64,000 nucleotides of DNA. It comes from Saccoglossus kowalevskii (lineage: Eukaryota; Hemichordata; Enteropneusta; Harrimaniidae). The notes under the pieces were generated by a model. It worked only from the letters and a program-made list of their open reading frames with translations. It was not told where the DNA came from and did no database searches. Each line of letters opens with the position of its first letter. Position 1 is the first letter of the stretch. The DNA is taken from contig NW_003155247.1 of assembly GCF_000003605.2 (NCBI RefSeq), positions 114,846 through 178,845 of the forward strand, in the 5' to 3' direction. Positions 7,629-59,671 of this stretch are shown piece by piece. The translations under genes and the position numbers were made by a program.

Positions 7629-7706
7629 ACACTACACTACACTACACTACACTACACTACACTACACTACACTACACTACACTACACTACACTACACTAC
7701 ACTACT
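7629..7706. repeat. (ACACT)n microsatellite
   Basis: About 15 uninterrupted pentanucleotide units. The open frame across it encodes only a Leu-His-Tyr-Thr-Thr repeat and is not a gene. Confidence 0.95.
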
Positions 7707-19620: not shown

Positions 19621-21658
19621 AATCCGCAGTTGTTCCTGAGATGACAAGTGTATTTAAATATTTTCAGTCGTCACTTTCTAAAAGGTATTATCGTTCTAGA
19701 TTCGTTTAGAGAGGGCGACATATCGCTGGACGATAACACAATTATAAAAAACGATTTCAACCCATGTTTTATTTATTGACCATAGTTACATAAAATATAA
19801 TCTAACCGTAACAACATGATCGGCATGGTAAAACATTTCATAAATACGATCGTCAATGATTTAAACCAATTTCCCATTTACCGTGCTTTTTATGCATCAA
19901 AGAAAAGAGAAGGTTGTCGGGTTAATTACATATAATAAAATAATACTTTCTGAACACTCAGTATACTAAAATATGTAGAATGTAGTCGCGTCTCGAGTGA
20001 AGTGTGTTCGCACAATGCAGTAATACGAGATCGCAGGGAAAAACACGATTTTATTTAGATCATTGTGTTCCGTGTGTAACAGAAACTGAAACGTGATGAT
20101 TGATTTTCATATTTACTTATTTATCATCATCACTGAAAATACTTCGTTTATATTCATTGTATTTTGATCCTTACGGAATTCACCCGGTGACCTTTATCCC
20201 TCGAACTAAGATGCACTTTGCCCCTGGCAACGTGGTTAAATTGACTATTTCGGAAATAATGTTATGGGGGCAATGACAATTGAGGGAAGATTTATTTCAA
20301 CTCTTTAAAATATATATTTCGGATCTAGGTCATTGTTAATAGGGTCGCATATTTAAAAATTTAGTTTTTCAAGAACGGCATTTATTGCTTTTGCACAAAA
20401 AGAATGATCATGACGTGTAAATGTGTTTCCTAGCAATTGTACATATAGTTACCTTTGTTCACGATATAAGACATGCTGGCAACGTTCGAGCTATTACTAG
20501 ATCTCATTCCTGCTATTGTCACATTGTGCTATAAAATACAGTAATTTTGCTCGATTATTTTGCTACAATTTCTGATTCGAAAATGAAAGAAGTATAAAAA
20601 AGTGCATTGTGGCTGCAAATCGCCGTCATCGCTTTTGAAAAAAAAATAGTGAAAGGCCGATACAACGTTACTGTCAGTGTGGTAGCGTTTAATTGGATGT
20701 TTTGGGATTTTTACTTTAAATTAGATGCAAAATGAGAACATGCAATTCCAGCTGTGCATGTTGGTTTCAGAGAACCCATTGTTCATTTCGTTTTGGTGGA
20801 GACTGACTGTTGACAGGTCCTATTTGGCAAGTTACTGCGGCTAAGTAATAGAGCAATTCCAAAGACCAAACAAGGTAGCATGCAAGCTGTCACTATTCAT
20901 TCTCGTTCAATTACCGGGTATATTCCCCGAGCGCAACTTTTGCTACTGAGTTAGCGATCAATTGTAACAAGGAAAAACCTTGATACATCAAATACGCGTA
21001 GAGTCTTCGCCGGAAACCTGAATGCATATTATCAATGGAACGTGTCAGATTACCAAGTTCAATGCAAATGTGGCCCCGTTACAATGGTACTACAGGGAAT
21101 GAGGTTATTCAAGTATGTGGTGGTGGTGGGTTAATAAAAAAAAACCATTTATAATATGCTGACTATTAAAACATATTTAGCTTTAATATTAAGGCGAGTT
21201 TGTATCATCGTGTGCATATTTATATATATGTTTTTCAATTATTATTTTTTACGTAAAATTAAAAAAAAGTATAATTTAAATTTTAAAAAATAGGACTACA
21301 CGTCATTTAAATATTTGTCGCACATATACAACGGTGCTCGTCAGCGTGTACACCTTTCCTGTGCGATATTCGATCCCAGCCTATGCAGGTAACAGCTTTG
21401 CGAATGTCTATGCACAGTCGGGGAACTTGATACCGATTTACAGGTACACTGGGAGATGTGCTTGACGTCCCGGAATACGCTTACATAATAGCGAGCGTAT
21501 AAAGACACGTACTAACCAATCCGAGGTAATTCTCTATGTAGTTCATATTTCACGCGGCCAATTTCCGCTCTTTTCTTATCCTGACTCATTTTCATTTTAA
21601 CAACGTCCGCTCAATTGTTCGCCCTCTGTAATGGCTCGTGCCATGTATCGTCACTTAC

Positions 21659-21887
21659 GGCCAGTGGGATTTCAGCGACAAGTGAATATACCCTATTTTG
21701 TTAACACGGCATTGTATTGCTTTTATCAGACGCCGGTATAGTAATTTTCGTAAGAGACGGTTTTTGCGCATAAATTCTTAAGGCCAGTGGGATTTCAGCA
21801 AAAAAGTAAATATACATTATTTAGTTACTACGGCATTGTATTGCTTTTATCAGACGTCGGTTTAGTAATTTTCATAAGAGATGTTTG
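21659..21887. repeat. Tandem duplication, 123-bp period, about 1.9 copies
   Basis: GGCCAGTGGGATTTCAGC starts at 21659 and again at 21782, and the similarity continues through GGCATTGTATTGCTTTTATC and GTAATTTTC in both units. The copies differ at scattered sites. Confidence 0.85.
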
Positions 21888-37132: not shown

Positions 37133-37411
37133 TCATTCATTCATTCATTCATTCATTCATTCATTCATTCATTCATTCATTCATTCATTCATTCATTCAT
37201 TCATTTATTCTTTCAATCATTCATTCATTCAATCATTCATCTATTCATCATTCATCCATTCATCCATTCTTTCATTCATTCATTCATTCATTCATTCATT
37301 CATTCATTCATTCATTCATTCATTCATTCATTCATTCATTCATTCATTCATTCATACATTCTTTCATTCATCCATTCTTTCATTCATCCATTCATTCATC
37401 CATTCATTCAT
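37133..37411. repeat. (ATTC)n microsatellite, interrupted
   Basis: About 280 bases of tetranucleotide array with variant units in the middle (CAAT, TTTA, CATC). The long open frame over it reads His-Ser-Phe-Ile repeatedly and is not a gene. Confidence 0.95.
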
Positions 37412-40435: not shown

Positions 40436-40581
40436 TCAGTTCATTTCTTTTGCACAATTGTCAACGCAACTATCGTGGCGCTCTTTACAACTGGCTAGGC
40501 AGGATTGTTGGTGGCCGTCCTTTTCGTTGCACGATGATGAACACTCCTTCAACGGTTCAATGCATTTGATAGTGTAACAAT
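40436..40581 (-). CDS. Exon 21: C-terminal eight-cysteine domain and stop
   Basis: Acceptor CCTTCGCAG; the exon completes an Asp codon and encodes 48 residues to a TGA. Eight cysteines have spacing C-x4-C-x6-C-x3-C-x9-C-x3-C-x6-C-x3-C. The two CxxxC pairs either side of a nine-residue linker, with charged intervening residues, suggest a disulfide-pinned helical hairpin, a fold seen in several small secreted peptides; this is inference from spacing only. The frame stays open 36 bases into the intron with an ATG, but the good acceptor and the phase match argue the exon starts at 40581. Role unknown: it could be a mature peptide, a folding aid, or a recognition domain for processing enzymes. Confidence 0.85.
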
Positions 40582-43500
40582 CTGCGAAGGCAAGAGAGAA
40601 CATGGGGTGTGAATACATGGAGCATAGTGTGTGTGCAGTTTGTTTCTACTACAAAAAATACAGTTCTCAGATAAGTATCAATAACATTTTAATAAAATCA
40701 CGCCCTCTACGGCCAATTGTGCAGCTGTAACCCAGTATCCGATAAGGTCGATTTCAGAGTTTTTCATTTACTGGAAAAATTATTTTTCACTGGGATGGAA
40801 TAGGGTGCAAAAGGAACTCTTTACCCTTACTAAACGTGTTTGCTCACAAAATGCATGGCATCACACTGACCACTGAGCTGGTGTAAATTTACATAGAACA
40901 TTTGAAGAACTTGCTCGTTCATTCTGGCAGAGGATCATACTAGCACGACCTCACAGTTGAACCAACACGTGGATAAGTACATAATACGGTCATGTATTTC
41001 TCACGTGACAACAGTACACTTACCTATGATTAGTTCTGCTTGAGTTTTCGACATGTCATATAACGCATCAGCTGTTGGGATGGAGGAAAGAAAATCGAGC
41101 AATTCAGTAACGACCCACAATTCTATTCGTTTTACACTACAATACGTAATAACGACAAGTAGATTAGCGCCATCTACGGCAGCTATAGTTTGTCCAGGAC
41201 AGGTATTTGTGCGTTTAAAACAAATATTTAACAAACGTGCAACATTACAACTATAGACATTGGGTATATAAAATATGCATGAAGGGTTGCTGTATGGACT
41301 TAAAATCACTTATAATTTTAATGGAATCTTTTTTTTTTGCGCTTCCCACTAGTACAGTGTATCACTACACATTCTTGCGTACTGAATTTTTTGTTCAACG
41401 TGTCAAATACCGAAAAGAACGTTCCATAGAATGAATGCAAAATTACGATCCGAAACGTGACACAGTGCCATAAAAAGTTACTGTGATCTAGTAAAATCAA
41501 TTTACACTAAAGAGTTGGCAAACATCGTTCTAAACAAATATTGACGTTTTAATGTTTCTACAACCTTCAATTGTAGCGTCCTCGCCGCATACCAATTATA
41601 CAAATTAGAACAGTAGGCACTTTATGCGAGCTACGATAGGACAGCTTTTTGAAGGCAATATCAAATTATGTTTTTTACACAAACACAACAGTGTTCATAT
41701 TTGTTTCAAAGATTTTAATCAGAACTTGTAGCGCGGCCAGTGTGAATTAAATCAATTAACAATGAAATTATACAACAATACGCAGAGAATGATGATTGCA
41801 TCACGATGATAAATAGGTTAATACATTTCTAATATCTAGTAAAAGGAGGAAACACTTAATTTGTCGTGCGTGCTTTGTGAATAATAATGAAGAAGAAAAA
41901 AAAAAAGAACTGAACAACTAATTGGTGGACGTATGAGAGCATTGAATTTCGTACTTTCGTATAAGCACACTTGAAACACGTGAGAGCCAAAGTCGCCGTT
42001 TTAAACGAAAAGTTCAGGGTAACAACAAATACTCGCATACATCCTTGTGAAATGATTGAATGAGGAATACAAAACTTGTCGGTCACTATGGAAACTATGA
42101 CGGATCTTCCACGTCTACCACAATACCGGATGTGACGTCACTGGACACCGAACATATTGGTAAAAGAGAGAGACTAATCTTACTTAGATGTCATACCCGT
42201 GTCTGCTTCTTTTTTGTCCACCCAGAATACTGTGAAAAAAACGAAAACAAATACAACAGTAAGATTTACACCAATTATTCCGCACTAGTGACACATAAGT
42301 CCGCCATTTTGTTTTACAAATTCATTATCACACACGCGTTATGTTGATGTATGTTTCAATTTCTTTACGATGTAGACGACAGAATCCTGGAATAATTATC
42401 TTACCTCGTTTATCTTTATCGGCTGCATATTGAATTCAAGAAACACAAAACACGTTAAACGTTGGCACAACGTGAATGAAGAGATATGATGAAAGTTGAA
42501 TACTGCCAATATGCAAATTGTATATATTACGCCAGCGGCGTGTAGGCTCGTTCGCGACACCCACAACCACCGACACGTGCGCGTGATTCGACGAGATATT
42601 CATAACAAGAATGTTACTATGTACAAACATATTAACGGCCAATGAGGATGAATATATCATGGCAACGAGCAAAGTAAATTCCAGTTGTAATATTAATTTT
42701 CGATTATTGGGTTTTAGATTGAAAAAAATCGTGCACAAAACAACCTATATAATAACAATATTTTATTTTGTATTGTGTGTCATGCAGAAATAATGAAAAA
42801 GTAAAGCAAATGATAGTGTAGAACGTTATATTACAATGATAGCGCTAGACTATTTGAATGTACTTGACGTGCACCTACCTTGGTCGTCCTTCTTCTCCAC
42901 CCAGAAAACTGAACGCAAGAGAAAAACAAAGATTTTACATTTTCTGTTATTATATAACGAACATTTTTTTTAATTTTAACACTAATAATATCGTAAATAT
43001 TTGTTGTGTACATTGCCTGATTAAACATAACTATAGAGGGCGACTTTCTAAGTAAGTAAACAATTGCAGTAGACAGGCAGTGAAATGGGCGGGACATAAA
43101 TTAGCGCTCGAAAGTGAGATTTGAAAAGAACACCAGTGTGTTCGAGTATACAAATTTGACCTGTCTCATATTACTAGAGCTAGAGTTACACTAATTTCAA
43201 TACCATGCATTTCAAATCTATTCATATTTGACTTAAATTGGTAGCAAATTTTACAAAAGTTTCGGCTTAATATAGGGATAATTTCAGTTAAGGTCAAAAC
43301 ATGGACAATTGGGTGACTATTAACTCCGTCAATTGTTTTCGAATCTCCCGTTATCGAATGTGTGCACACATCTAAATGTGCTACACATTATAGTGGTTAT
43401 AGTGTAAAAATGCTAATGCTAAGTATGTCCGAAATGAAAAATAGGGCGTTATCATATCATCTAAAGCATAACTTATGTAATAATGTTCGCTCACCTCTTT

Positions 43501-46500
43501 TCTCCTGGTCTGTTGAAAAGAAAAATATTTAATTAGATAAAGCGGAAACAAGTAGGGGAAGATGTATTCTTTAGCGTCGAATAGTAAGCATACTGGTGGT
43601 CATAAAGTTTGAACACGCGCCATGTGATCGAGGCTATAAGACACGCGTTATCCTCGTGAACGCCGCGTGGCGACTGCTTACAGACACAACCAGCCTAAGA
43701 GCAGACATACACAAAAACACCGGTTGACATAAATAACAATTTTGTTATAATAAATGTGACTACCATGAGCACAAAGTAAAGAGAAAATTCAGACAACTTT
43801 GAAAATATTTTAGGATTTTTGCTTGATAAACGTTGTTTCGGTTCCGTATGAATAGTCGTTTGATTAAATGCTAACATTCTCAAACTACATTTAGAAAAGT
43901 TACCAAATTGCCTGGTCACGTAAGCACAAGCACCTCAATCAAGTTTTTTTATTGAAAAACAAAAATAATTCTTGCAATAATGGTATCATTTTTTGCATAT
44001 AATATCAAACGACATATAAGTGAAAGAGATTGGCATCGACCAAATATTGTAGTTAAAGACGAATCGTAATCTTGGGCAGAGGTGGCGGCACGAAATTCTA
44101 AATGGGGGTGGGGTGGCAAGATCTGCTCACCATCCCTTACGGGGAATGCCCTTCCTTAAAAATGTTGAAATCTCGACATTCTGAAACGCTATTTCCTGCA
44201 TATTGAGGGGCAAATTTTGCTGACACAAAGGGTTTCATCTTGATCTGCTCTCCGTGCCGCCGCTACTGTGGGGGTATGTCAAGTTGAATTTATTTTAAAT
44301 GTGAGCTATTCCATAATACCATTCAATCAAACAGATAGATATCTTAATTGAATTTGAAAACAAACCTGGATTTACAAACAAGGAGCTACAAAACATTGCG
44401 ATCGGTTGATTTAATGATGGATACAAGTACAAATAATACACAGAAACAACGACACAAATACAATAAAAATCGCACTATAATAGTCATGACGAATGTACGA
44501 CATTACATTACCATATATTTACACATACATGCATAATAGTTGGGATTGATACATACCTTTGCCGTCTTTCTTTTCTACCCAGAACACTGTAAATATAAAA
44601 ATAGGACATGCAAATAGGCGTCTCGGGTATAGGCGAAAGCATTGATGGATTGTGCATGGCGAAGGTGTTAAAGTGCATTTTTACTTCACGCACACACACT
44701 TATAACATGTAACGATGTTCGTGTTTCAGACTTACGATTGCATACCAGATAACACATTGTACTGTCAATGATATTGTTTTAATCACGTTTCGCTGTAAAA
44801 AACAGTCTGCACCTTGTTTGCATAAATGATAAGTATCGATAAAATTTGTTCCGTATTACGAGAATTAGTATGTATTTCAGATAAAACCGGCAGTTAATAC
44901 GTTCTCGAACTTTACCTCGTTTGTCATCTGCAGCTTTTAAAATAGAATAAATGAATACCGATAAGTTAATTTGCATATGTAAATAAATCAGGGACGATTT
45001 AACAGTGCTTCCGTTATCGTTGGCGAGCATGAACTCAGAATATGTCATACAAAACGCCGATGGTAACGCCTTACCAGTTCATATAAAAGGCTCATATAAT
45101 ATGTTTTTATTTTCTTAAAAATCTACGCAAAATTTAGAGAAATGTTATACAACATTTTAGTGGGAACGTGTATTGTGGTTTTGGAAAGAATATTAACCAG
45201 TTTGGAGCCTATCAGTTCATGTGGCATACGTCATCATAATGTAAAACCGAACTTATTCGGTAGGTTACGATATTAACTAAATATTAACCTTTGGAGTCAT
45301 CGTCCTTCTTCTCAACCCAGAAAACTGCAAGTTAAATGGAGAAAAATGTGAATACCATATATGTAAAATGTATTATTGCACAGATATATACATAATATAA
45401 TAATAACGCGTCAAGTCATACTTATTCTCACCTCTTTTGTTTGGATCTGCGGCTTCATTACAAAGAAAGAAAAAAAGGGAAATACATTATGTTATTATTA
45501 ATTGGATGTATTGCTAGGCGACGCCTCATTTAACTTTATTTCACCGGAATTTAAAATCATATTTTGTTATCGCTCTAGTACGTCATTCTCTGTTGATGGC
45601 CGGAAAACTTTATACCGTATATATGTACAGGTGATTGGTTTTTGACAATTAAATTAATAAAAAAAAGCTAAAAAAAGAAAAAAAATCTTAAGATCTGAAA
45701 ATAATGAGTGCCCGAAGGAATATAGGTTGACATTGGCGCAGTCGCGGTGCATCATGGTTGGAAAAAGCACTTCATTCTCACACAATAAAAAAAATGTAAT
45801 GCTATAATATGTATTATCGGAAACTCTCAATGTCCTCATTATGAGTCTTTATAACAGGAAGCTGTTCACCCATCGACGATGTACCATGCAAGTAGGAGAC
45901 TTTATTGCTTCGTGACTATGATGTTTAACTTGATATCCATATTTTTTATTTTATTTTTTAACTCTAATTCTATTCACGTATATATCCAAATTGGCTAACT
46001 ATTATTGTGTGGATGTTGTTGTTTTTTGAGATCAAACCTAGATATAGTTAGTTGTTTTGCTGTACATCAATGCAAATGAAGCTATTTTATTGAATAACTC
46101 CAGAGTAACAGCGATACGATTATATCGTCAGCTTGAATAATTATGATTATGGGACCACTAAACAGCTCGTGTAATATTATGAGCGTAAGACAGTAAGAAA
46201 CCTACCTGCTGCGTCGGCATTTTTCTTTTCCACCCAGAAAACTAGAATATAATGATTATGTATTCTGTTTAGAGTCTTTAATGCCATATAATTGAATATT
46301 CATTCTGAGTTGCGTTAAGATACCTTATCAACTTAAATACTAACAATTGAAGAAATAATTTGCGATAAAACGATGAATTGTTGATGTCCTCACCTCTTTT
46401 GTCTTGTTCTACAGATTTGTAAAATGAAAAAAAATATGAATTAGTCATAGAATTTATTTATTCACGTTACTACTTTAAGAAAGACGAATCTAAAACCCAT

Positions 46501-49500
46501 CACTTGAAGCAGCAACAGTACATGTAGTACACTCAATGATATCACAACAGACAAAAGTAAATCGTATATGACAATGGTAAATCGTTCTTTAAAGTTGTGG
46601 CCAGAGACTTATAATACAAGTGGATGGGTAAGGTGGCATCTCACCTGCTGCATCAGCATTTTTCTTGTCTACCCAGAAAACTGTGGGAGAAATTAAATAA
46701 ATAAAAATTGGAGATTTGACATTACACTACATTATCATCTTTGATTTATGCCCACAGATCCTTTTCATCTACCTTTGTCAATATGTAATAACTCATCGAT
46801 ACTTGCCTCTTTTCTGATTATCTGAAAAAATAACAGAGAGAATAATAACTTTAATATTATATTAAATGTCTTTACATGATAGACGTGATAGACAATATTT
46901 TCCGCTCTTCTATTTGATCAACGTGTTAAGATGATATGTTATCGTACTTTGATTAATGATTGAACAGTCAGTATGCTTTTCAAGCACTGTCGTATAATTG
47001 ATATGTAATCCCCTGTGTCTATATAGTCAACCTGTCTCTTGGATGATGAGTGAAGTGCATTTTAGTCCTCTCACATATTTGCGTTAATGCTCAAAGCAAA
47101 GGTTATCGCTTGAGAGGTGTGAACTCCACAGTTTATAAAGTTTGTTGTTTCAGTACTTGATCAGTGTGGGCTAGGACAGATTATACGGAGTTCTAAACTT
47201 AGAAGCTGATTGTCGTCGCTATGATGTCGAAGATACATCGACATCCATTAGTGTGACACGTGACATGTTTCACAGCTTGTGTCCAAGTTATACTTATGAG
47301 TGAGGGTGTGTGCACGTGTAAAACACATTGTCGTTTAGGCTATATTCAAGAAACCTGTTAGAATCGAAAAATTCGATGACTTTTTCCTTGGAAGCTTTTG
47401 CATTAGCAGCAAATTATCTAGTAATTTATTTCAGAACAGAGAAATTGACATTAATGTAAATGTAAGTAGTATATCTTACCTGCAGCTGCTGCTTTCTTGT
47501 CAACCCAGAACACTGACAATAAAAATAACAAGCCATGAATGAATAAATAAATTAAAAAAATGTTTTGTTGACATTTTTGCAATTGGTGCGTAGTTGAATA
47601 CAACTGGTTATATAGAAATAATAGTATTATAATCTACGCTTTAAAATCATATATCTACATAACATATATAAAATGAAATGTACATTGACGTGGTTTGGGG
47701 ACGAATTGTAGCTTAATTTAGTTTAAAAACAATTTGTACACTAATGCAGTTTGAAAAGAAATGTACATTAATTTACTTTGAACTTTACCCTCAATACGAA
47801 CAAATATTTTAAGATCTGTATTACCGTCGCGATCGGCTATATTGGAGTTATGATTTGAAAACTTATATCAATGAACCGTTCTAGTTTCATATTTAGTCGC
47901 AAAGCATACAATGACCCGGAAAATGACTTTTATTTTACGATCGGAGCGGTGGCGATTCCACGAAATTAGCCTGAGAAAGACATATGCTATTCCTTTTCGT
48001 AATTTGACAATTCGAGGTACTTGACAACAATTCTAACAGTGCATGGTCTAAGTGCTAACAATGTTTCTCCTAATCATAGTTTCAATCTGCTGATACTGTC
48101 ACCTGAAGCTGAGAATTGTGCTTCACCCAAGTGACGTGACGACCTAGAATATATTTGTTGACCCGCATTTAAAGGTCCTCTACAAATTTAAATGAGAAAG
48201 TAGTATACAATAATACAATTGTATTGACATTACAGTGACATACACTCGAATAACCATTAGAATAGCAAGCTAGGTGGTTGGCATTTCATGCCTCGTTTAG
48301 GGGGCACGGTGGCCTGCCACAATAATTAGGATAGTCATGAGAATTCAGAATGGTTAATCACAAGAGACGAATAGCTGTTCAAATCTTATCGTCTCGCACG
48401 TTACAAAGAACCTGCAATTTTACTGAGGAGACGCGGACTCCCAAATCGGCGATGCACGTTGACAAGATGAAGAGACTCGTGGTGCACACTCTTAGTTACC
48501 CTATAGCGAATTCTCACTATACACTTCTATATAATTAATGGTCTAATTATTTTACATACACACACATATCAAAATAAACGTACCTCTTTTGTCTATATCA
48601 TCTTGGGATGCTATCAAAGGCAAAACGAGAATACAAATGTCATTTGAAAGCAAGATTACTGTTAAATTCGACGTTTTTCGAGACGTGTAGGTACAGTTCA
48701 GGGAATCATTAACGGTGTTAACTAACTAAGATGCCTCATTAACGAGTCCACTGTGAGCCGTTCAACGAAATACTGTAATTTGCGATCGGCTGAACGGACA
48801 CCGGAGATACAGCTGTAATGATGTTTGCATTCATTGTAAGGATACGATGTGTTGCACTCACCGTCTTTCTTGTCAACCCAGAACACTGTAGAGAAAGTAG
48901 AAAATAAATGTTATAAAAATTTACTAACGAGTGAATTTGAGAAATAAAACCAACGAATAACTAATTTGTGGGGTAATGATTAGTGTGTCAGCTTATCAGA
49001 CTGCGGGTGGGTTCGACTCGCACCGTCGGCTGCATACTCAGCAGTGACAACAAATACATTCTGCCTGCCCGCTTGCTAGGGTCGCAGTTTTGTCGGAGGA
49101 GCGTAAAGCTGCCCCGAGTGCTGTTCGCATTCACAGTGCACGCACGAGATCCAGTTGTTCATGCCCCAAAGAGTAACGCATTTTTCTCAAAACATGTGTA
49201 TGTTTGAGTTGTATTGCGTTGTCCCTCATTTCTAAGTCTGGCCCCGGGCTAGTTGACAGTATGACTCGGTAATATGCATTTTCAACCCAATAAATACAGA
49301 CTAAATAATTAGGATTAATTATGACATTCGTCGCGTTACATATTGGTGTTATTAATTACCACGATCACACGCTGGTAGGTGTAAGTGCGCATGTGTGGTA
49401 CGAAGTCCTGGTACCTTTCACATATCGATGTTCCATTTCTTCTCATTAGTGCCCGCAGTTGATAGCGAGCTTATACGTCAGCAAGAAACAAGGACTGATC

Positions 49501-52500
49501 GCACGTTTTATTCACTGTCATGTTTGCCTTAATCGATGGTACGAGAGCGTTTAGATATATAACAAATTAATAAAATTGTGTACATTAAAATCAGTAGAAA
49601 TTATGGTTAGCAATTAACATTATTGTAGAAAACAATAGGTAAAAAAATGATAATATTTCCATATTTCCTACTTTTACGAAAATCGCTGCTAACCAGATTA
49701 TAATATACTAATGAAAATATGCTAATTATATGACGTCACACACACATATAATTTACCTCTCTTGTCATCTTCTTTTTCTGAAAAAACAACATAATAACTT
49801 ATAGTTAATATATTATTTATTCATATATCTATCTAAATTATTAAAAAAAATAATAATTGATCTTCTAAGATACGTAGCAAATTCCAAAGGTCAGTAACTA
49901 CCCGGAAATGCTCCGTAATGATATTACCAATAAACTAAAAGCACTTACCAAGGTCTGCGTTTTTCTTATCTACCCAAAATACTGTTCAAAAAATTTAAAA
50001 AAAATAGTCTATGAGTGAAACGGAATCGAGATAACGCATAGACGGTAATTATGTGTTTGTATTCTGTATCCACACTAACTAGTATTCAAAAAGGAAGTCT
50101 ATTTGTCATTTTTCGGATTAACGAAATATGCACAATGACACAGTAGATTCGGAAATGAAAGGACATTACGACTAAATGATAATAAATTCTTTCAGTGACA
50201 AGATTACATTTTTTTTCAAATGGAAAAACGACATCGATTTTCCTTGAGTAAATACAATTAGTTGAGCCCGATTATCCAGTGGAATAACAAGTGTGTTTAG
50301 CGACTAATGCTAGGAAAACGAACCGTCGTCTTCCCCCATCCCCCACGGGTTAACACACAACAAGGAGTGCAATATTCATTGAGCTGACCTCTGATAACGG
50401 GCTGTCTCAGTTGATTTATATATATTATACCGTTGATTGCAATGAATTCTCAAGTGGCGCGTTTAATATATTACTTAATAAAATGTACGCCACGAGAAAA
50501 CGTCAAAGACACATGGGTACAATGTACCTATGTAATTGCGCGTGTACTTGACATGTGCATATCCCATATTGTACATCACTGTAATATTGTTCAATATATC
50601 AAGTGTTAGTTCACATGTGTGACAATCGTATTTGTCAATTGCAGAACGTTTAGTGGTTTCTACCCGAATACAGTAACAATGTCGCGCTATTAGTTCACTA
50701 GTTGGTTTCCTAACACATTTAATCGCAATGAAATGTACACATAACATGTGTTGCGCACTTTTGCGTGTAGTAAGAAGATATTCATATGACGATAGGGTGT
50801 TCTCATGTGGGTGGACCGATTTATGCGACAGCTATTTATATTTCCCCATACATTAGATTTGATTTATAAATACGTCCAAATACGACAATGTTCTTGGTGG
50901 ACTGGGCCGTATAAAAGTAAGAGGCAATCCCACAACAAAAACATTTTACTAGCTAACAACTTTACTTAATCAATAAATCGGATGATATACATACCCCGTT
51001 TTGATGTATCTCGTTTGTCTACTGTTGGCGCTGCATTGACTGTGAAAAAAATAAATAAAAATAAATTATATGTGAATGGCCTGGGTAAGAATTCCTGGAG
51101 TTTAACAGCAGTACTTGTACAACTATACAATGCAACAGATGTTCAAACAACTCACAAGCGAGTTACATTTATAATTCGTGTTAGCATTCAGTTCGGTTAA
51201 GGGTTACATCGCTCCCATGTTCGTTCAGCCAACTCAAAAGGTACTGATTACACAAAGCAGATTACTGTCCTATATACATAAAGGCCGCCTGAGTCTACAG
51301 ACGTTACCTATAGTAGAAAACATTCGTCTACGATTACTTCTCTGGCATAACGCGAAATTTACGAAAAAGAGATACAATCACAAATCAGAAAACAAATTTT
51401 TATATTTTATGTACGGTATATGTGAATATTTCAATATTTCAATAAAATCTATTGATGGCTAAGTAATCGACAATGACGTAACTAGATTATTCCCAGCATT
51501 CTAACCTTTTTCATACACAATAGATCTTCGTGTACAGCTAAAAAAACAAACATTGATATGCTTTCATGTACGTGAGCTTTTTATCTAAAACTGGTTTGGC
51601 ATGTGTATGGTAAACCCCCTTAGGTCGTTATTTGAATGGTAACAAGTTCTCAAGTTAAAGAAGGTTTAATTTGTTGCCAATTATCCACGGCAAGAATGAT
51701 GTATTCCTATCAGATTACCAATTTAACTTTTTCGATTTTACCAAAAGGCGTCCAATTATATGTTCGAGAGGGTGGGTGTAGAATAAAATGTCTTGTGTTT
51801 CTCTAAACGACAACAGAAAAGACATTTAAATGACCCCAAATGATTTTTTACAGAGTTTTGATGATTTAAAGCCGATCCACCGGTATTTGTCTTCGGATCT
51901 AATGTACTATAAAGTCAGGGACTCATATCCCTGGTGTAATTATACACAGAAACATAGGATAGCTTTTCATGATCAGTCAAGACTCATTTGTCAAATGATA
52001 TACCCAATAGACGTTACTTTATTACTGAAACATAATAGTAATATTTGATTTGTATCACGGCGTGGGTAATAATGCGTAAGGTATCGCCATTGTATTTTTC
52101 CTATCACATATACGTTTATACGGCATATGTAACAGACACGTATCGCTGCCTTCTCTTTTTATCGTTTTAATATCGCTCAAAATAAATGCTTCTGTCTACG
52201 TTATTCCCGCTTTAGGCGCAGCGCTTAAGCCGTTCGCATTATGTAACACGGACCATGATTAAAGTCGGCGACTCAATTATTTTGTAATTAATTGCAATTT
52301 ATACTCAGACAACTCAGAAAACCTACTGCGTTATAGTCTATGCCAACTTCTGGGCACAACACGTGTAGCAGAAACAGAAATGGCGAATACAAACAAACGG
52401 GAAGTTGCGATTTAATTACGTCGCGATCACGTGCTGGTAAATGCTATTATATTAATGTAATTCAAAAGCAGTTTTAATGAGAACAAAATGAAATGGAATA

Positions 52501-55500
52501 TTATTATGAATCCTATCCGTGTGCTATCACCGTCTTGGTAATTGATTTATGTTTTTAATACCAAAGCACACAATTTAGATTTATCCGTCTATCAATTATA
52601 GACCAAACATAGCGGCACAAGGAAGCAATTTCCAAGCGATTATGCACGAAAGCAATAAATAAAAACGCGAGCACAAGAGATGAGTTATTGCCGCTGGCTT
52701 TAATAAGAACTGAACTTACCCGTGTCGTCATACGCGCCTATATTAGACTATCAGTATACAGTGATTTATAGCACGCAATTGGATTTCAATGTAATACCAG
52801 GCTTTCCTAATTTGTTTTGCAGATGCATATTTGCATGCATAATGGGATGAAACAGCGGAGGATGGTGGCTCGCCTGTGGGATGAGGCAACTTCATTGGAT
52901 TAACCGTAAGTGCTTATTAAGTCTCAAAACATGTGCGTGTTACTGTAAATATCGCATTAAAACTTAGATACAACACAGCGATGTACGCAACCTTTATTAT
53001 CAAGAAACTTAAGCCCGAGGGAGTTCGGAAAGATATCACTTAAAACGCAAAATTAGCATTCAAATTATAATTATGTTTTGCTTTTTTGCAGGCTTGTCTC
53101 AATAGATCTCAACTGCAAATAGCCGCTGAGATCTCGTACTGAACGAGAGAGCTTCGAGACTTGTGTTTGCCCTTCAAATAGTAATCTATGTAGACTGTAT
53201 GTAACTGTAGACTGGATGACAGGAGAGATCAAGTCACGTGGACCACTCGTTCTCAACGAGATCTCGGCGGCCATCTACGTTCAATTTCCATCAATCGGAT
53301 TGAATAGTAGTTAACAACTTATAGTTAAAATAAAAAATGTAACATGATACCAGAATAGGCAAGTCTTAGTTTTGTGCAAGGAACTATTAGCAAAAACCAA
53401 TTGTTTTTTTTAAAATGGCGGAATGATACGTTCAGAGTGATCAGTTCGTTTGGTCAACTTTTCCAGTAGTGCGAATACAAGTGTAGTTTAATAGCCTTCA
53501 TTTTGGAGACTTTCAACACCATGATGATGTATTTATTAGCTGATTTAAAATGTTGTATATTTGTGCGCACCTTTACTTTTTTGCACTATGTGTGAAATAT
53601 CCCAGTTTGTCAAGTGTTTATATTGTTGCCTGTTGGGAACTTTATTGAAGTATTAAACATAAAACTGTATTTTTACTTTTGGAAAACGCGACGTGTACTA
53701 TTGGGTGATGTCAAACATCAATTTCAAAAGAACAAGTTATCTGCCCTGCCCTTCAATTGTAACGACGTATGCGATAAAGTCACGCGTGTATTTTGTCGAA
53801 CGTCGCGCGATATACGCAAGTTTTGTTTAAGGTCACGGAACGTCACCTGATAAGCACGAATTCTACCGAAAATCTCACTATAAGAGCGAGTTTTATTTAA
53901 GGTCATGGAACATCACCTGATAGGCACGAATTCTACCGAACATCTGGCTATAGGAGCGAGTTTTGTTGACCATCACAGTAGAGACTAATTTGATAGCGAG
54001 GCGATGAATATTACAACTAATAATTTGAAAATGACTTTCAAAATTTAAAATATCCTGCCAAATGTTATAAATTAAAATTTGATTCTTGCTTATAACATAA
54101 GGCTATGTATACTGTGAATGGTGTCTCCCACACAATATATTAAATTACCCGATAAAGTAATGTAATTCGGACATGAATGAAAGGGGAGTTTTAGATGATT
54201 TCCCAAACACAATTGAGTCGCGCAAGTAAAAAAAACCCAAGCGCGAGGTTAGTGTTAATCCGGTGATTTGATTTGCATAATTGGCTTGAATAATTAACAA
54301 GGTTTAAATGACAACTATATTCTAAATTTTAAATACACATATTCTCATTTCCCGAAGAAACGTTCCAAATTGATAATTAGAATCCATGTGATTCATCGGT
54401 CGGCAACGTAACTGATTGGTCATAAAGGCAATTATTACGATTTTAATTATTTCACTGACTACTTCCAAGTGGCGGGAAATTGACAACCCACCCATGGGTA
54501 ATTCTCGCGTCTAATTATGATTAATTTCGTTTCTGTGTATGTTTCGCAATTTAAAGTTCGTGCAATCTCTCGTTCTGTCATACCCAAAGCCCCCCCCTAA
54601 TCCTCTAGATGCATTCACTCTGTAAATTGTTATGTAAAGCGACTATTTCATTTTTTTTTCATACACTACAAGTTCAATTAATATATGTTACCTATTAGCT
54701 GATCAGCAAACCCAACCTGCAAACAGTAGGACGGCGATTTCTTTACCTTACTGACGCAAGTCATAGAATAAACATAACTATTAGACAACTAAACGGGGGG
54801 GGGTATATTTTTTCCATTCAATTTAAAACGGAATTGATATGACTTAATTGAATGAATGCAAAGCTTTCCCTTAATACAGATAGTAAGATCGTCACCAGTC
54901 TGTGAGCATACAAGATACGCCAGATAGCATACAACACAATGGTTTCCTTGGAGACTATCGTAATGCCTACCCAATTGACGATATTAAGGCTGATTACTCG
55001 ATACTTTGACATTCACGGTTGCGTTTCATGTCACATTTCTCTCGTGTTAGCCGTCGTAACCAATAATTAGTGGGTTTTAGTATCACATGAAATGTTTGCA
55101 GTCTCGTTCGCAGCTAGTTCTGTAATAATCATTAATATTACACAAAATATCTATTTATCATACTAGGTGAAACAAACAATGGGATTTTTTTATTGTGCAG
55201 TGTGCGCTCGTTGACTAGTTGCTAACGTACTTACGTACATCTCAAGCTGACATTTCAGAAAAAATAAACTATGAATTATTAGACAACAAAATTGCCCTGG
55301 AATCTAAAATCGTGTATATATGTGAAAACGGAAACAACTCATATAACTCATGAAGCATTCAGAATGTGTGCTAAGATTTATCTAAATGCGCTCCTAAGCT
55401 GACGTTAATAAATTTTTCATAAGAACAATCAAATCTTGTATTAAATGCTTCACTGATTTCAAAGTATCGAAGACTTTATTTGACGGCTCATATTCAGATA

Positions 55501-58500
55501 GCAGTAATTGCTTAACGCGTCCGAAGAATGAAACCATGGTATATTCATGTTTTAGATTAGACTTAATCCGTACCTTGTCGAAATTGTTAAGCCGACTTAG
55601 ATCTTAGTTACTGAAATAGATGAAGCCGTAGTATTGTTTTCTCTTAAAGTTCACTCAAGTTTATCATAACTATCCTATTTGAATTGAACAATCAATGCCT
55701 TCTCCGGAGATTTTGAAAGCACATCCGATATTACTATCAGCTCTATACATTGTCCCGGGGAACATGTCTTGACATCTTTGATAATTTACGTGAACGTGAA
55801 AAAGGGAATACGGTGCTCCAGCAAGCGCTGTCAGAACGTGTTGACTTAATGTCTACCACCGTTACGTCAAATTTTCTTATCGAATCAATAAATCAGCCAA
55901 ATGTAGCTCTCGTCGTAGTCTAATGAGAAGTCATATCTATGGAGATCGATTAATTTGTGAACATACAGGTTAACCCCCTGCATGATACAACGGACTGACC
56001 TCGTACCTTACCTCCCAAGACTCTCAGTCTTCCGCATCGACTTATACTAGTATACGTAAGTAATATCAGTCACCCTAACCGGATTATTCACGTGCACGGC
56101 GAGGAGCTGTTAACTCAATTCAATCTAAACGAGTCGTATCAATAATGCATGCGTGTCAATAGTTTGGTCGTAAATGTCTGCATGGCAGAGTATGCTCTAC
56201 GATGGATATGAAAACTTACTGTATTTTCCTGTGGGTATTTTTGTACCGTACGCTTTGAACAATGACCCAAAGTTGTCATAAATAGTATAACTGCAGTCCT
56301 ATAATGATAATATTTCGCTTAGGAAGGTAATAATAAAATAATAGTAGTAAGACTAATCTGTGTAGATTTCTCCCTGTCTCGTATTTACTTCTACATGAAA
56401 ATCACAACCCTCAACGCATGGAAAATGATTTTTTAAAAAACCTCATTCAAATATTTCTACGGCAAATCTGTGAGCGTAAGGATGGGATGCCAGNNNNNNN
56501 NNNNNNNNNNNNNNNNNNNNNNNNNNNNNNNNNNNNNNNNNNNNNNNNNNNNNNNNNNNNNNNNNNNNNNNNNNNNNNNNNNNNNNNNNNNNNNNNNNNN
56601 NNNNNNNNNNNNNNNNNNNNNNNNNNNNNNNNNNNNNNNNNNNNNNNNNNNNNNNNNNNNNNNNNNNNNNNNNNNNNNNNNNNNNNNNNNNNNNNNNNNN
56701 NNNNNNNNNNNNNNNNNNNNNNNNNNNNNNNNNNNNNNNNNNNNNNNNNNNNNNNNNNNNNNNNNNNNNNNNNNNNNNNNNNNNNNNNNNNNNNNNNNNN
56801 NNNNNNNNNNNNNNNNNNNNNNNNNNNNNNNNNNNNNNNNNNNNNNNNNNNNNNNNNNNNNNNNNNNNNNNNNNNNNNNNNNNNNNNNNNNNNNNNNNNN
56901 NNNNNNNNNNNNNNNNNNNNNNNNNNNNNNNNNNNNNNNNNNNNNNNNNNNNNNNNNNNNNNNNNNNNNNNNNNNNNNNNNNNNNNNNNNNNNNNNNNNN
57001 NNNNNNNNNNNNNNNNNNNNNNNNNNNNNNNNTCGCACAAGAATATAACGTTCAATCGGGAATGACATTTTATAATTTGATAGCTCATATCCGTAAATTT
57101 CAAATGGAGGATTAAGGGGACCTTGCAACATCGCTGTGGGTATCGCGTAAATGGTTTCATAATAGGGTGACCAATATGGATATTATACCCCACATTGATC
57201 ATTGTAGTAGCAAATTTCGTATTTTCGTCTCTCATAATTGTAATTGTCCTTGTAATATTAGCGCTATGTGTTACTTATCATGGCGTACTTATCCTAAGAC
57301 GACAGGCGCGGATTTCACCCGCTGTGAACGATGGTAGTTTAGGGTTCCAGTTTTTTAAATCGCTCTGTGATATAATTAAAGACGAGCATGTCATATGAGT
57401 GAAACTCCTCCCCGAATGAGTTTCTCTTACAAGTACGATGAAACACAAATGGTCATAATGGTGGTTACATTGCACTAACCCCCAGATGATCAGCCTTGCT
57501 GACTAATTTCGTATGTGTTTGCCTCCAAATAACAAAAACGCTTCCTTAATCCAACTAGATATATGCTCTAAGGAGCAAATCATATTACGTGAGTTTGTTG
57601 TGTTCATTAATAAGGGAGAATCTACAACCTCGCTCCAGGACCTGTAGAATTGCGATATTGAATGGTTCAGCGTAAGCAGGGGGTAGTATTGAAGTTTGCG
57701 TAAATCATTAACCATCCTTACATAGATCAATCAGGCGAAGTTGAACCCGGGATCTGCACGTTTCTTTTTCTGTTAGTTGGATTATTCAGACGCTTTGCGT
57801 ATTTACGTTAACAAATTTGACAGAGTTACTCAAGGAGATTGGCAATTTCCGCCAAGAAAATCAATTTTGTCTTAACCCATAGCTATCAAACACCAGCCTG
57901 GGGGCAATTCCTTGTTCATCATCTAACGCTAACCAGTCGTGTTGCATCAAATACTCTTTCAAGCGCTTCACAATTGCTGTCGCTATTTCTTATTGCGAGG
58001 CATGTTACACATGATGATGATGATAGCGTTAGTTTGTTTAGATCGTGTTTTTAGTGATGCAGCGATTGTCGTATCCCTATTGTATCTGATTATGTGTATA
58101 CTGTACAAACCTTACAGCACATTTTAAACCTTTAAATCAGTGGTCTCGATGTACAACTTTCATGAATAATTTGCATCGTGAAATCACGTCGTATTCAATT
58201 CTAATAAAGTGCTTTTGGCACTTTTGCTTGAATTTGCTTCATCAAATTGCGAGAGAGAAACGGTGGCGCCAGTAAGATCCGAAATGACCTGACCAAGAGC
58301 CACATCAACGGACGCACAATGTTAAAGAACGCCAACTAAGTGATTTTTTTACTGACGATGGTATAGTGTTGATGACAGTAACAACATAGGCCTTTTTTAA
58401 TACAGTACATGATTCAAGCCAGAGAACTTGTGATTGATTAAAATTGTTTGTTTTTCCAAACTTCATATGTCAATATTAACCCCCGGGATTCCACACAAAG

Positions 58501-59656
58501 GTTTAATGTATATATCCGATGAATTGAAGTTGCGGACAAATTAAATCCAATGCCTGTTTGCAGAACAATAACCGTCGAGCGCTCTTGGGACCTGCTATGA
58601 CAACTTTACGTACGGCGTAATTTGTTATTCTGGTTTGTGAGCCAATTGTTTTAAAATAAAAACACAAGAGAACCCCATTAATCATTTTTATTGCATTTCG
58701 AATTGGTTCATCATCACAGATCGAAATTAGCTTAGAAACCTGGTATGAAGCTAATATAAATGTTAGAGTTTTGAAGAAGATTGAGACGAATCGTGTCTCA
58801 GCGAAAACCCCACAGGACCGCACTGCAGATTTCAAGAAACGTGTTGTTTTAGAAATGATTAGAATGGACAATAAAACATATTTTCAATTCCATATGTGTT
58901 GATTTATATTACTGCAGTCAACGTGCTTTCTCGCGAGTTACGTGACTTGTGGGCATTTACCAATTCACCAATGATAAGTTGGAAAATAACCAGGCTATAG
59001 ACAATCTCAATGTGTCGTAATTGCGTGGGAGAAGAATAGGGATTCTTCTCATTTTAAGCATAAATACATTGTTTTGTCAAAAACATTTTATATTGAAGAA
59101 ATTTAAATATGTGTTAGTCTCGAGAAATAAGTGTGGTTTAGGTGTTGGCATATGTTCGGGGAAATCGCAGAAAGCAGTGAAATGTAAACCACGCCTTGCT
59201 TCTCTGAATCCTCAACCCAATTCTGAAGGCATTGGAAGGAAATTACGTTAGCGGTTGTAATATTTGTGTTTTGAGAAATTGAATTTGTTGACATTGGCAA
59301 AACAATCATAGCAGCGTAGATTGAACGTTCAGAGAATGAATTCGCTGTCTCAATTTCGTTACTAAGTCTTGAAATGGTTGTAGCCACGAAACAGTTCATT
59401 ATCATCCAACAGTATCACAATCTCAATTCTAGCGTATGTATCACATTCTTCTTATTATTACCTTTGCCACAACATTCCTTTTTTTGCCAATAACTCGGGC
59501 GCATCATGATGAAGAACAAATTCCATCTGCGTGGAATAACAAACACCCGTTAACAACACCATTGAAGTTTCAACCGCATTTTGATAATAAGGAATATAAC
59601 TTACCTGCAATACAACTAAGAACTAGGAGGCACGCACACAACCCAACGCTTGCCAT
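40436..59656 (-). CDS. Multi-copy secreted peptide precursor built from alternating micro-exons (21 coding exons)
   Basis: Seen: a signal-peptide exon, a propeptide exon, nine exons encoding VFWV[D/E]KK peptides alternating with eight exons ending in Lys-Arg, a spacer exon and an eight-cysteine terminal exon, all minus strand. Every junction is phase 1 (a G left over joins two bases of the next exon), every internal exon is a multiple of three (12-48 nt), and the 720 coding bases give 239 residues plus a stop. Introns run from 107 nt to 8.6 kb; all are GT-AG except one GC-AG. Known: repeated short peptides between dibasic sites behind a signal peptide are the hallmark of prohormone-convertase precursors (neuropeptides, defence peptides, toxins); chains of tiny symmetric exons recall schistosome micro-exon genes. 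Inferred: the protein enters the secretory pathway and is cut after Lys-Arg to release nine related peptides. I do not recognise the family. Transcript evidence would settle exact exon borders; the overall model is strong because frame, splice sites and repeat agree throughout. Confidence 0.85.
41024..41071 (-). CDS. Exon 20: linker ADALYDMSKTQAELII
   Basis: A 48-nt exon with a strong acceptor (a pyrimidine-rich run ending CCCAACAG) and a strong donor (GTAAGT), phase 1 on both sides. It shows no similarity to either repeat type and joins the peptide array to the cysteine-rich tail. It contains no dibasic site. Confidence 0.78.
42197..42229 (-). CDS. Exon 19: peptide copy 9, VFWVDKKEADT
   Basis: A 33-nt micro-exon with acceptor TTCACAG and donor GTATGA, phase 1. 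It reverts to Asp at position 5. No Lys-Arg follows; the next exon is the C-terminal spacer, so the Lys-Lys inside this copy is the last dibasic site before the cysteine-rich tail. Confidence 0.86.
42405..42422 (-). CDS. Exon 18: spacer ADKDKR
   Basis: An 18-nt micro-exon with acceptor ATATGCAG and donor GTAAGA, phase 1. Last of the Lys-Arg exons, preceding copy 9. Confidence 0.83.
42879..42908 (-). CDS. Exon 17: peptide copy 8, VFWVEKKDDQ
   Basis: A 30-nt micro-exon with acceptor GTTCAG and donor GTAGGT, phase 1. Last of the four consecutive Glu copies. Confidence 0.87.
43495..43509 (-). CDS. Exon 16: spacer DQEKR
   Basis: A 15-nt micro-exon with acceptor TTCAACAG after a good pyrimidine tract, donor GTGAGC, phase 1. 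It supplies the Lys-Arg before copy 8. Confidence 0.84.
44076..44150 (+). repeat. Dispersed repeat, copy 2
   Basis: CAGAGGTGGCGGCACGAAAT, a G-rich run, then TCTGCTCACCATCCCTTACG match the minus strand of 34605-34735. A partial inverted match (GCCGCCGCTACTG) ends the region near 44270. It lies in the intron between exons 15 and 16. Confidence 0.5.
44557..44586 (-). CDS. Exon 15: peptide copy 7, VFWVEKKDGK
   Basis: A 30-nt micro-exon, acceptor TTTACAG, donor GTATGT, phase 1. It is the only copy with a glycine in its tail. That Gly-Lys is followed by Asp of the next exon, so it is not a clear amidation site. Confidence 0.87.
44916..44927 (-). CDS. Exon 14: spacer DDKR (or AADDKR)
   Basis: At 12 nt this is the smallest exon if the CAG acceptor is used; the outer AAG acceptor extends it to 44933 and adds two alanines. 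Donor GTAAAG. The AAG-then-CAG acceptor pair resembles that of exon 12, suggesting the two exons share an origin. Confidence 0.75.
45289..45324 (-). CDS. Exon 13: peptide copy 6, VFWVEKKDDDSK
   Basis: A 36-nt micro-exon with acceptor CTTGCAG and an unusually weak donor (CAAAG followed by GTTAAT). The peptide has the most acidic tail of the nine. The weak donor makes this exon a candidate for skipping. Confidence 0.82.
45432..45446 (-). CDS. Exon 12: spacer DPNKR (or AADPNKR)
   Basis: A 15-nt micro-exon with donor GTGAGA. Two acceptors six bases apart (AAG and then CAG) follow a long pyrimidine tract; use of the outer one extends the exon to 45452 and adds two alanines, still in frame. I chose the CAG as the stronger site. 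Confidence 0.78.
46206..46241 (-). CDS. Exon 11: peptide copy 5, VFWVEKKNADAA
   Basis: A 36-nt micro-exon, acceptor ATTCTAG, donor GTAGGT, phase 1. This is the first copy with Glu instead of Asp at position 5; the next three copies share the Glu. Confidence 0.88.
46394..46408 (-). CDS. Exon 10: spacer EQDKR
   Basis: A 15-nt micro-exon with acceptor TCTGTAG and donor GTGAGG, phase 1. It provides the Lys-Arg site before copy 5. Confidence 0.85.
46645..46680 (-). CDS. Exon 9: peptide copy 4, VFWVDKKNADAA
   Basis: A 36-nt micro-exon, acceptor CCACAG, donor GTGAGA, phase 1. It differs from the exon at 46206 in one residue (Asp versus Glu at position 5) plus a few silent bases, so the two are probably the most recently duplicated pair. 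Confidence 0.88.
46807..46821 (-). CDS. Exon 8: spacer DNQKR with a GC donor
   Basis: A 15-nt micro-exon with an excellent acceptor (TTTTTTCAG) and a GC donor (AAAAGAG followed by GCAAGT), the only non-GT donor in the gene. The rest of the donor matches consensus, as is usual for functional GC-AG introns. GC donors are often alternatively used, so this exon may be skipped in some transcripts without loss of frame. Confidence 0.8.
47480..47512 (-). CDS. Exon 7: peptide copy 3, VFWVDKKAAAA
   Basis: A 33-nt micro-exon, acceptor GTCAG, donor GTAAGA, phase 1. The tail is four alanines coded by GCA/GCT, unlike the Asn-Ala-Asp tails of neighbouring copies. Confidence 0.85.
47675..47783. repeat. Degenerate ~30-bp repeat, four units, in an intron
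   Basis: Variants of a unit like AATTTGTACATTAAT..AGTTTGAA occur four times with periods of 28-33 bases, between exons 6 and 7 of the micro-exon gene. Confidence 0.5.
48584..48610 (-). CDS. Exon 6: spacer ASQDDIDKR
   Basis: A 27-nt micro-exon with donor GTACGT. The acceptor GATAG follows a pyrimidine-rich stretch. A second AG nine bases further in would give an 18-nt exon (DDIDKR), also in frame. It ends in the Lys-Arg site before copy 3. Confidence 0.75.
48862..48885 (-). CDS. Exon 5: peptide copy 2, VFWVDKKD (shortest copy)
   Basis: A 24-nt micro-exon, acceptor CTACAG, donor GTGAGT, phase 1. Only one residue follows the Lys-Lys, making this the shortest of the nine copies and showing that the VFWV[D/E]KK part is conserved while the tail varies. 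Confidence 0.85.
48966..49030 (+). repeat. tRNA-derived SINE-like fragment in an intron
   Basis: GATTAGTGTGTCAGC followed by GGGTTCGACTCGCACC resembles A and B boxes of a tRNA-derived SINE head. The following ~150 bases are richer in GC than their surroundings and may be the SINE body. It lies between exons 4 and 5 of the micro-exon gene. Confidence 0.5.
49757..49777 (-). CDS. Exon 4: acidic spacer EKEDDKR
   Basis: A 21-nt micro-exon with acceptor TTTTTTCAG and donor GTAAAT, phase 1. It supplies an acidic run and the Lys-Arg site before peptide copy 2. Acidic spacers before dibasic sites are common in neuropeptide precursors. Confidence 0.85.
49949..49981 (-). CDS. Exon 3: peptide copy 1, VFWVDKKNADL
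   Basis: A 33-nt micro-exon with acceptor AACAG and donor GTAAGT, phase 1 both sides. The first valine is a codon split across the intron (G + TA). This is the only copy where Phe is TTT; the other eight use TTC. It begins right after the Lys-Arg of exon 2. Confidence 0.85.
50995..51039 (-). CDS. Exon 2: N-terminal propeptide with two dibasic sites
   Basis: A 45-nt exon, acceptor TTCACAG, donor GTATGT, phase 1 on both sides. It encodes VNAAPTVDKRDTSKR. Two Lys-Arg pairs occur, the second directly before the first VFWV peptide, so cleavage there would free that peptide from the propeptide. The exon is longer than the later Lys-Arg exons but shares their end (AAA CGG G). Confidence 0.8.
52720..52737 (-). 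CDS. Possible extra micro-exon GAYDDT in the first intron
   Basis: An 18-base stretch with a strong donor (ACACGG then GTAAGT) and an AG (AATATAG) 18 bases before it. It is phase-compatible and would add six residues between the signal peptide and the propeptide exon. The acceptor lacks a good pyrimidine tract, and the segment matches neither repeat type, so it may be chance. Confidence 0.25.
53119..53275. repeat. Palindromic element (fold-back MITE)
   Basis: Arms at 53119-53164 and 53229-53275 are near-complementary for about 45 bases (core GAGATCTCGT, with GAACGAG and GACTTG also matched) around a ~65-base loop. It lies in the first intron of the micro-exon gene. The minus-strand open frame here merely reads through the element. 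Confidence 0.65.
53821..53973. repeat. Tandem repeat, 70-bp period, 2.2 copies
   Basis: Two 70-bp units start at 53821 and 53891 (shared TTTAAGGTCA and GCACGAATTCTACCGAA); a third begins at 53961 and fades. Confidence 0.85.
56494..57032. other. Assembly gap, 539 N
   Basis: Run of N inside the first intron of the micro-exon gene; it could hide a small exon. The long frames drawn across it are artefacts. Confidence 0.99.
59605..59656 (-). CDS. Exon 1 (coding): signal peptide
   Basis: The exon encodes MASVGLCACLLVLSCIA and ends in GCAG followed by a strong donor (GTAAGT), leaving phase 1. A hydrophobic core of about ten residues and a small-residue end (Cys-Ile-Ala) make a typical cleavable signal peptide. 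A second in-frame ATG lies 15 bases upstream (59669-59671), giving five extra residues. However, a pyrimidine-rich tract ending in CAG lies between the two ATGs (acceptor at 59666-59667), so this exon probably starts at 59665 after a 5' UTR intron and the inner ATG is used. An antisense open frame over the same bases is taken as a shadow. Confidence 0.8.
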
Positions 59657-59671
59657 AGTTAGTATCTGCAT

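Follow-up and report, generated by a model that had tools for sequence, protein, structure and literature searches.

A candidate multi-copy prohormone gene with alternating peptide and cleavage-site micro-exons in the acorn worm Saccoglossus kowalevskii

A predicted peptide precursor in a 21-exon gene

A 64,000-nucleotide (nt) stretch of the genome of the acorn worm Saccoglossus kowalevskii (contig NW_003155247.1, positions 114,846 to 178,845; hereafter the window, to which all coordinates refer) contains on its minus strand, from 59665 to 40436, a gene whose 21 exons we spliced and translated. We think it fairly probable that the product is a secreted multi-copy prohormone whose peptides would most likely serve as neuropeptides or other endocrine signals. 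The features that support this reading, a predicted signal peptide, identical peptide cores (VFWV[D/E]KK), dibasic boundaries and acidic spacers, are all present. A preliminary description of this DNA, whose observations we confirm in almost all particulars, had read the gene as a multi-copy peptide precursor with alternating micro-exons. Its interpretation as a whole is partly supported; the reading as such a precursor is well supported, by the match of the product to a protein at NCBI and by its conservation in acorn worms of two other families.

The open frame comprises 241 codons across the 21 exons, and the coding span runs from the ATG at 59656 to the stop codon at 40436, exactly as proposed. 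The spliced product (241 amino acids) is identical to the S. kowalevskii entry "uncharacterized protein LOC102807013 isoform X2" at NCBI. Exons picked by eye before any database search had given 243 amino acids, 99% identical to this entry over its whole length; the acceptor of exon 12 was then shifted by 6 nt, after the entry had been seen, which brought full identity. The gene model is already public as sequence, contrary to the earlier expectation that annotation would have missed the gene; its product is unnamed, and domain libraries give it no name. The "X2" in its name implies that further isoforms exist.

Exon 1 (59605-59665; its 5′ limit was set at a guessed acceptor) carries the ATG and the predicted signal peptide MASVGLCACLLVLSCIA, and exon 2 (45 nt; 50995-51039) encodes the end of the signal peptide and a pro-region, VNAAPTVDKRDTSKR, with two Lys-Arg (KR) sites. 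From exon 3 to exon 19, peptide exons and KR exons alternate strictly. The nine peptide exons (24-36 nt) each encode VFWV[D/E]KK and a variable tail: VFWVDKKNADL in exon 3 (49949-49981), VFWVDKKD in exon 5 (48862-48885), VFWVDKKAAAA in exon 7 (47480-47512), VFWVDKKNADAA in exon 9 (46645-46680), VFWVEKKNADAA in exon 11 (46206-46241), VFWVEKKDDDSK in exon 13 (45289-45324), VFWVEKKDGK in exon 15 (44557-44586), VFWVEKKDDQ in exon 17 (42879-42908) and VFWVDKKEADT in exon 19, the last of them (42197-42229). The eight KR exons (15-27 nt) all end in Lys-Arg and encode EKEDDKR in exon 4 (49757-49777), ASQDDIDKR in exon 6 (48584-48610), DNQKR in exon 8 (46807-46821), EQDKR in exon 10 (46394-46408), DPNKR in exon 12 (45432-45446, with the acceptor of isoform X2; our initial pick was 45452), AADDKR in exon 14 (44916-44933), DQEKR in exon 16 (43495-43509) and ADKDKR in exon 18 (42405-42422). 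A 48-nt linker follows in exon 20 (ADALYDMSKTQAELII; 41024-41071), and exon 21 (40436-40581) encodes an eight-cysteine tail and the stop codon. The seventeen alternating micro-exons thus stand as first described, as does their framing by a signal-peptide exon and an eight-cysteine exon; the 45-nt exon before the array and the 48-nt linker after it had gone unmentioned.

All 20 introns, one after every exon except the last, are in phase 1, as claimed, and range in length from 107 to 8565 nt. Nineteen of them are GT-AG; the remaining one is GC-AG, with its GC donor following 46807 after exon 8. The 19 internal exons measure 15-48 nt, and every length is a multiple of three. At exon 14 the NCBI model takes an AAG acceptor (44933) rather than the CAG that lies 6 nt deeper in the exon. 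If that model is right, the micro-exons span 15-36 nt; the lower bound of 12 nt given previously results from use of the inner CAG. The presence of this AAG acceptor and of the GC donor in the NCBI model hints weakly at transcript support. Just before the first coding exon (59605-59668) we noted an acceptor-like CATGCAG, and the homologous protein of the acorn worm Glandiceps talaboti carries an upstream extension of 11 residues, the end of which (TLT before M) is similar to ATACTAACTATG (ILTM) in S. kowalevskii. Together, these observations make a further 5′ exon upstream of exon 1 likely.

The splice-anchored core is confined to this gene and under selection

A 22-nt pattern that joins the splice AG to the codons of VFWV[D/E]KK matched nine times in the window, compared with a mean of 0.00 in shuffled windows (0 of 100 shuffles). 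With a slightly looser pattern, still anchored on the AG, the whole 572-Mb genome yielded nine matches, 9/9 of them in LOC102807013, and the backwards control yielded one. We therefore rejected a coincidental motif, and the original claim that nine cores on the minus strand are not chance is borne out. The unanchored 18-nt core matched 15 times in the genome, nine times in LOC102807013 and six times elsewhere. These six look like background, since they do not exceed the ten matches of the backwards control. As candidate paralogues they were also rejected: five of the six, on inspection, had no splice AGTN in place, and the sixth was absent from the anchored search. The cysteine tail had a single match in the genome, LOC102807013 itself.

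Comparison of the nine S. kowalevskii cores with one another revealed differences at 0.76 of synonymous sites and at only 0.031 of nonsynonymous sites, which indicates that selection maintains the peptide. No pair among the 20 introns was similar in a same-strand blastn comparison (E ≤ 1e-3), and the only repeat of at least 40 nt between 40 and 60 kb was a 70-nt intronic pair. Recent duplication of exon pairs was rejected on these grounds; dissimilar introns and a lone repeat pair suggest that the duplications are old. A 70-nt tandem repeat of about two copies (53819-53964) lies within the 8.6-kb first intron, and a segment of intron 4 (48970-49090) resembles, by eye, a short interspersed element derived from a transfer RNA.

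Relatives in three families of acorn worms

We searched approximately 5.8 billion proteins, scoring 1409 candidates at a cut-off of E ≤ 10. Three proteins passed, all from acorn worms: the S. kowalevskii product itself, LOC144436064 isoform X3 of Glandiceps talaboti (56% identity) and an uncharacterized protein of Ptychodera flava (39% identity). The three species represent three enteropneust families, Harrimaniidae, Spengelidae and Ptychoderidae, and their precursors contain nine, seven and five VFWV copies, respectively. A profile search recovered no further relative among the 7998 best candidates scored. A search with the tail only returned just the LOC102807013 product; it was a weak search, in which two candidates were scored and both known relatives were missed. 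That no relative appeared outside acorn worms is the outcome of these particular searches rather than proof of absence.

Across the three species, VFWV is invariant in 21/21 copies. Position 5 of the core is E in 14 copies, D in six and Q in one; positions 6-7 are always dibasic (KK in 20, RK in one), and KR precedes all 21 copies. The segments that follow the cores differ in both length and sequence, yet every one of the 21 has a net negative charge; two of them contain an additional KR module, and the last segment of each species continues into the linker. In Glandiceps (KDKR-AGNDKR) and Ptychodera (DDDKR-EDLDKR), two KR modules follow each other without a VFWV core between them, as if KR exons had moved or been spliced independently. 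The N-terminus is hydropathic, with 10-residue means of up to 3.03, and ends in VNA-AP, matched by VHA-AP in both relatives; this points to an N-terminal signal peptide, predicted here from hydropathy. The precursor had no Pfam match at the cut-off, the best being Vps36_ESCRT-II with 16.9 bits where 24.1 were needed.

Predicted processing and release

In the prohormone model, the signal peptide would direct the precursor into the secretory pathway, a proprotein convertase would cleave after KR and probably also after KK, and a carboxypeptidase would remove the basic residues. VFWV[D/E], or longer forms consisting of VFWV[D/E]KK and the tail, would then be released non-amidated and act on a putative receptor. 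The acidic stretches from KK to KR would serve as spacers. Release after KR is likely, and the signalling role of the peptides is a prediction. Cleavage at KR only would give a longer KR-to-KR form such as VFWVDKKNADLEKEDD. We consider a second cut at KK, producing the pentapeptide VFWV[D/E/Q], somewhat more probable than this long form because positions 6-7 are dibasic in every copy and everything beyond them varies. Amidation is not predicted, since no Gly precedes any of the 48 dibasic sites in the three acorn-worm precursors.

PC2, other peptide-processing enzymes and several peptides have been reported from neural territories and neurons of S. kowalevskii (PMC10508912, in part); in the available portion of that 2023 study of its nervous system, no VFWV peptide is named. 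Several considerations weigh against the prohormone model. No result indicates nervous tissue specifically, and the VFWV peptides carry no signal for amidation, whereas many neuropeptides do. Convertases cut less readily at KK than at KR. Finally, the agreement with the NCBI model is not fully independent, as both derive from the genome of the same species, whereas the conservation in the other two species is independent.

The eight-cysteine tail

All eight cysteines of the tail are kept in the three species (8/8), and tail identity is only 57% and 39%; the invariant VFWV core is thus the more constrained part of the precursor. In a structural model, the tail is predicted to form a hairpin of two helices (residues 2-16 and 24-46 of 47), with a mean predicted local distance difference test score (pLDDT) of 81.5 and a predicted template modelling score of 0.53. 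The cysteines occupy positions 1, 6, 13 and 17 and positions 27, 31, 38 and 42, and because this spacing is nearly mirror-image, four disulfide rungs across the predicted hairpin are plausible. This helical hairpin might act as a folding, sorting or co-released domain; a folding or sorting role is our guess by analogy with other prohormones. A full-length AlphaFold2 model was uninformative (mean pLDDT 41.7; residues 1-175 below 50).

Searches for similar structures gave nothing that we would claim. A sequence search of the Protein Data Bank with the tail returned two ankyrin-repeat matches (E 0.59 and 0.6), which we took as chance. Foldseek, run with the tail model, returned nine matches at E ≤ 10 and none at E ≤ 0.001; the best, the hairpin of walnut Jug r 2 (E 3.5, probability 0.54), was too weak to support a relationship. 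A neurophysin domain of the vasopressin type was not found, with no Pfam match at the cut-off for the precursor and none listed for the tail.

Alternative explanations

Could the gene be an annotation artefact or a dead gene? Apart from the single GC donor, little suggests it. The frame stays open over 241 codons in 21 exons, selection is purifying and two other families hold relatives, all of which makes the idea hardly credible. If the product is real and secreted, it might instead supply defensive or skin and mucus peptides, antimicrobial or deterrent, released from a multi-copy precursor onto the body surface. Acorn worms produce much mucus, and a secreted product with a hydrophobic core and a Cys-rich tail would fit such a role; a Cys-rich micro-exon family of sea anemones is described, in the portion of PMC10210398 drawn on here, as having venom as well as neuronal members. 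We nevertheless regard a defensive function as unlikely, given that defence peptides usually diversify, whereas VFWV is invariant in 21 copies from three families, and that the core, once released, would be very small and acidic rather than cationic.

Two further proposals reassign the parts of the precursor. The bioactive product could be the eight-cysteine hairpin, the VFWV repeats being a processed or discarded pro-region, as the retention of every cysteine and the fairly confident hairpin model might suggest. Yet the tail is less conserved than the core, repeated conserved cores are hard to account for as mere pro-region, and only KK, not KR, stands between the last copy and the tail; we judge this improbable. 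Alternatively, the protein might remain uncut as a secreted repeat protein of matrix, mucus or adhesive material, in which KR and KK would be structural or binding residues. The charge pattern is indeed alike in every repeat, but KR-VFWV-dibasic units with acidic variable spacers are the layout of a prohormone, and AlphaFold2 assigns the repeats no fold with confidence. An uncut protein therefore also seems quite unlikely to us, and cleavage of a prohormone remains the explanation that we prefer.

Possible control by splicing

Because all internal exons are symmetric (phase 1-1), any peptide or KR exon could be skipped without a frameshift. Skipping would let splicing set the copy number, and possibly the cleavage pattern: where a KR exon was left out, fused and longer peptides would result. 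A more specific, and in our view doubtful, proposal is that the gene encodes a splice-tunable prohormone, in which skipping sets how many VFWV copies are made and which are cut apart, within a signalling system that is confined to acorn worms and has its own receptor. The double KR modules in Glandiceps and Ptychodera, together with the isoform names X2 (S. kowalevskii) and X3 (Glandiceps) in the NCBI protein titles, are compatible with it.

Other features of the window

Elsewhere in the window, a (TCAT)n microsatellite of about 70 copies (37133-37411) is open in three forward frames and gives rise to long spurious open reading frames of HSFI-type repeats. At 7629-7705 the pentamer ACACT forms a perfect array (15.4 copies), and a 124-nt unit is repeated 1.8 times with 87% matches at 21654-21881. 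Rfam (gathering threshold) and ARAGORN found no match in the window. Of the 46 stop-to-stop frames that reach 90 amino acids, 20 were scanned with Pfam, and none of these gave a match at its curated cut-off.

Discussion

Among known systems, the pedal peptide/orcokinin (PP/OK) precursors resemble the VFWV precursor: they have a signal peptide and numerous nearly identical copies set between dibasic sites, they lack an amidation signal, and in both kinds of peptide the N-terminal part is conserved and the C-terminal part variable. The eight-cysteine tail is a difference, and VFWV[D/E]KK is unlike any PP/OK motif that we know of. In the accessible part of PMC5656890, PP/OK genes are said not to have been identified in hemichordates. 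The VFWV precursor might be the missing, diverged hemichordate member of this type, which we consider less likely than a splice-tunable prohormone. Luqin precursors differ, according to the available portions of PMC4062910 and PMC4772807, in having two tail cysteines and an amidated peptide, of which echinoderms and S. kowalevskii have one copy.

Precursors of the proenkephalin type share with the VFWV precursor pentapeptide-sized cores between dibasic sites, free C-termini and one Cys-rich domain. That domain is N-terminal with six cysteines in proenkephalin and C-terminal with eight in the VFWV precursor. The VFWV gene differs further in lacking a YGGF core, none being seen on inspection of the 241-amino-acid sequence, and in carrying its copies on separate micro-exons.

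The exon pattern itself has a counterpart in schistosome micro-exon genes (MEGs), which are described, in part of PMC10526429, as having numerous short exons whose lengths are mostly divisible by three, separated by long introns, and a secreted product, and as challenging for automatic annotation. The VFWV gene matches them in its many short exons in multiples of three and its long introns. In contrast to MEGs, it encodes a repeated peptide with processing sites on two alternating exon types, in a deuterostome. A schistosome MEG origin, which the micro-exons and base composition had brought to mind, was dropped when the protein search gave Saccoglossus. Homology to MEG proteins was not found, as only the three acorn-worm proteins passed E ≤ 10 among the 1409 and 7998 candidates scored. 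The SA8 (Sea anemone 8) family likewise consists of Cys-rich secreted peptides, whose micro-exon genes have large introns; as described in part of PMC10210398, and compared by description alone, it has 3-5 exons and no VFWV repeat.

Neither the core strings (VFWV[D/E]KK and FWV[D/E]K) nor the two LOC numbers had a match in the literature searched, and the VFWV gene looks undescribed within the searchable literature, being public only as a sequence model. That no named family has this core, as the preliminary description held, agrees with everything tested: the Pfam results, homologues in three acorn worms only and the literature search. As far as we have seen, the gene would found a new family of peptides within a known kind, the multi-copy peptide precursor; the layout, in which peptide and cleavage-site micro-exons alternate, also looks new. 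It also illustrates how a gene can stand in a public database while domain libraries cannot name it. With peptides and cleavage sites on separate symmetric micro-exons, the gene offers a clean natural test case for the control of prohormone processing by splicing. Hemichordates serve to infer early deuterostome nervous systems, and an undescribed, strongly conserved peptide precursor may serve there as a marker and supply a candidate ligand for orphan receptors.

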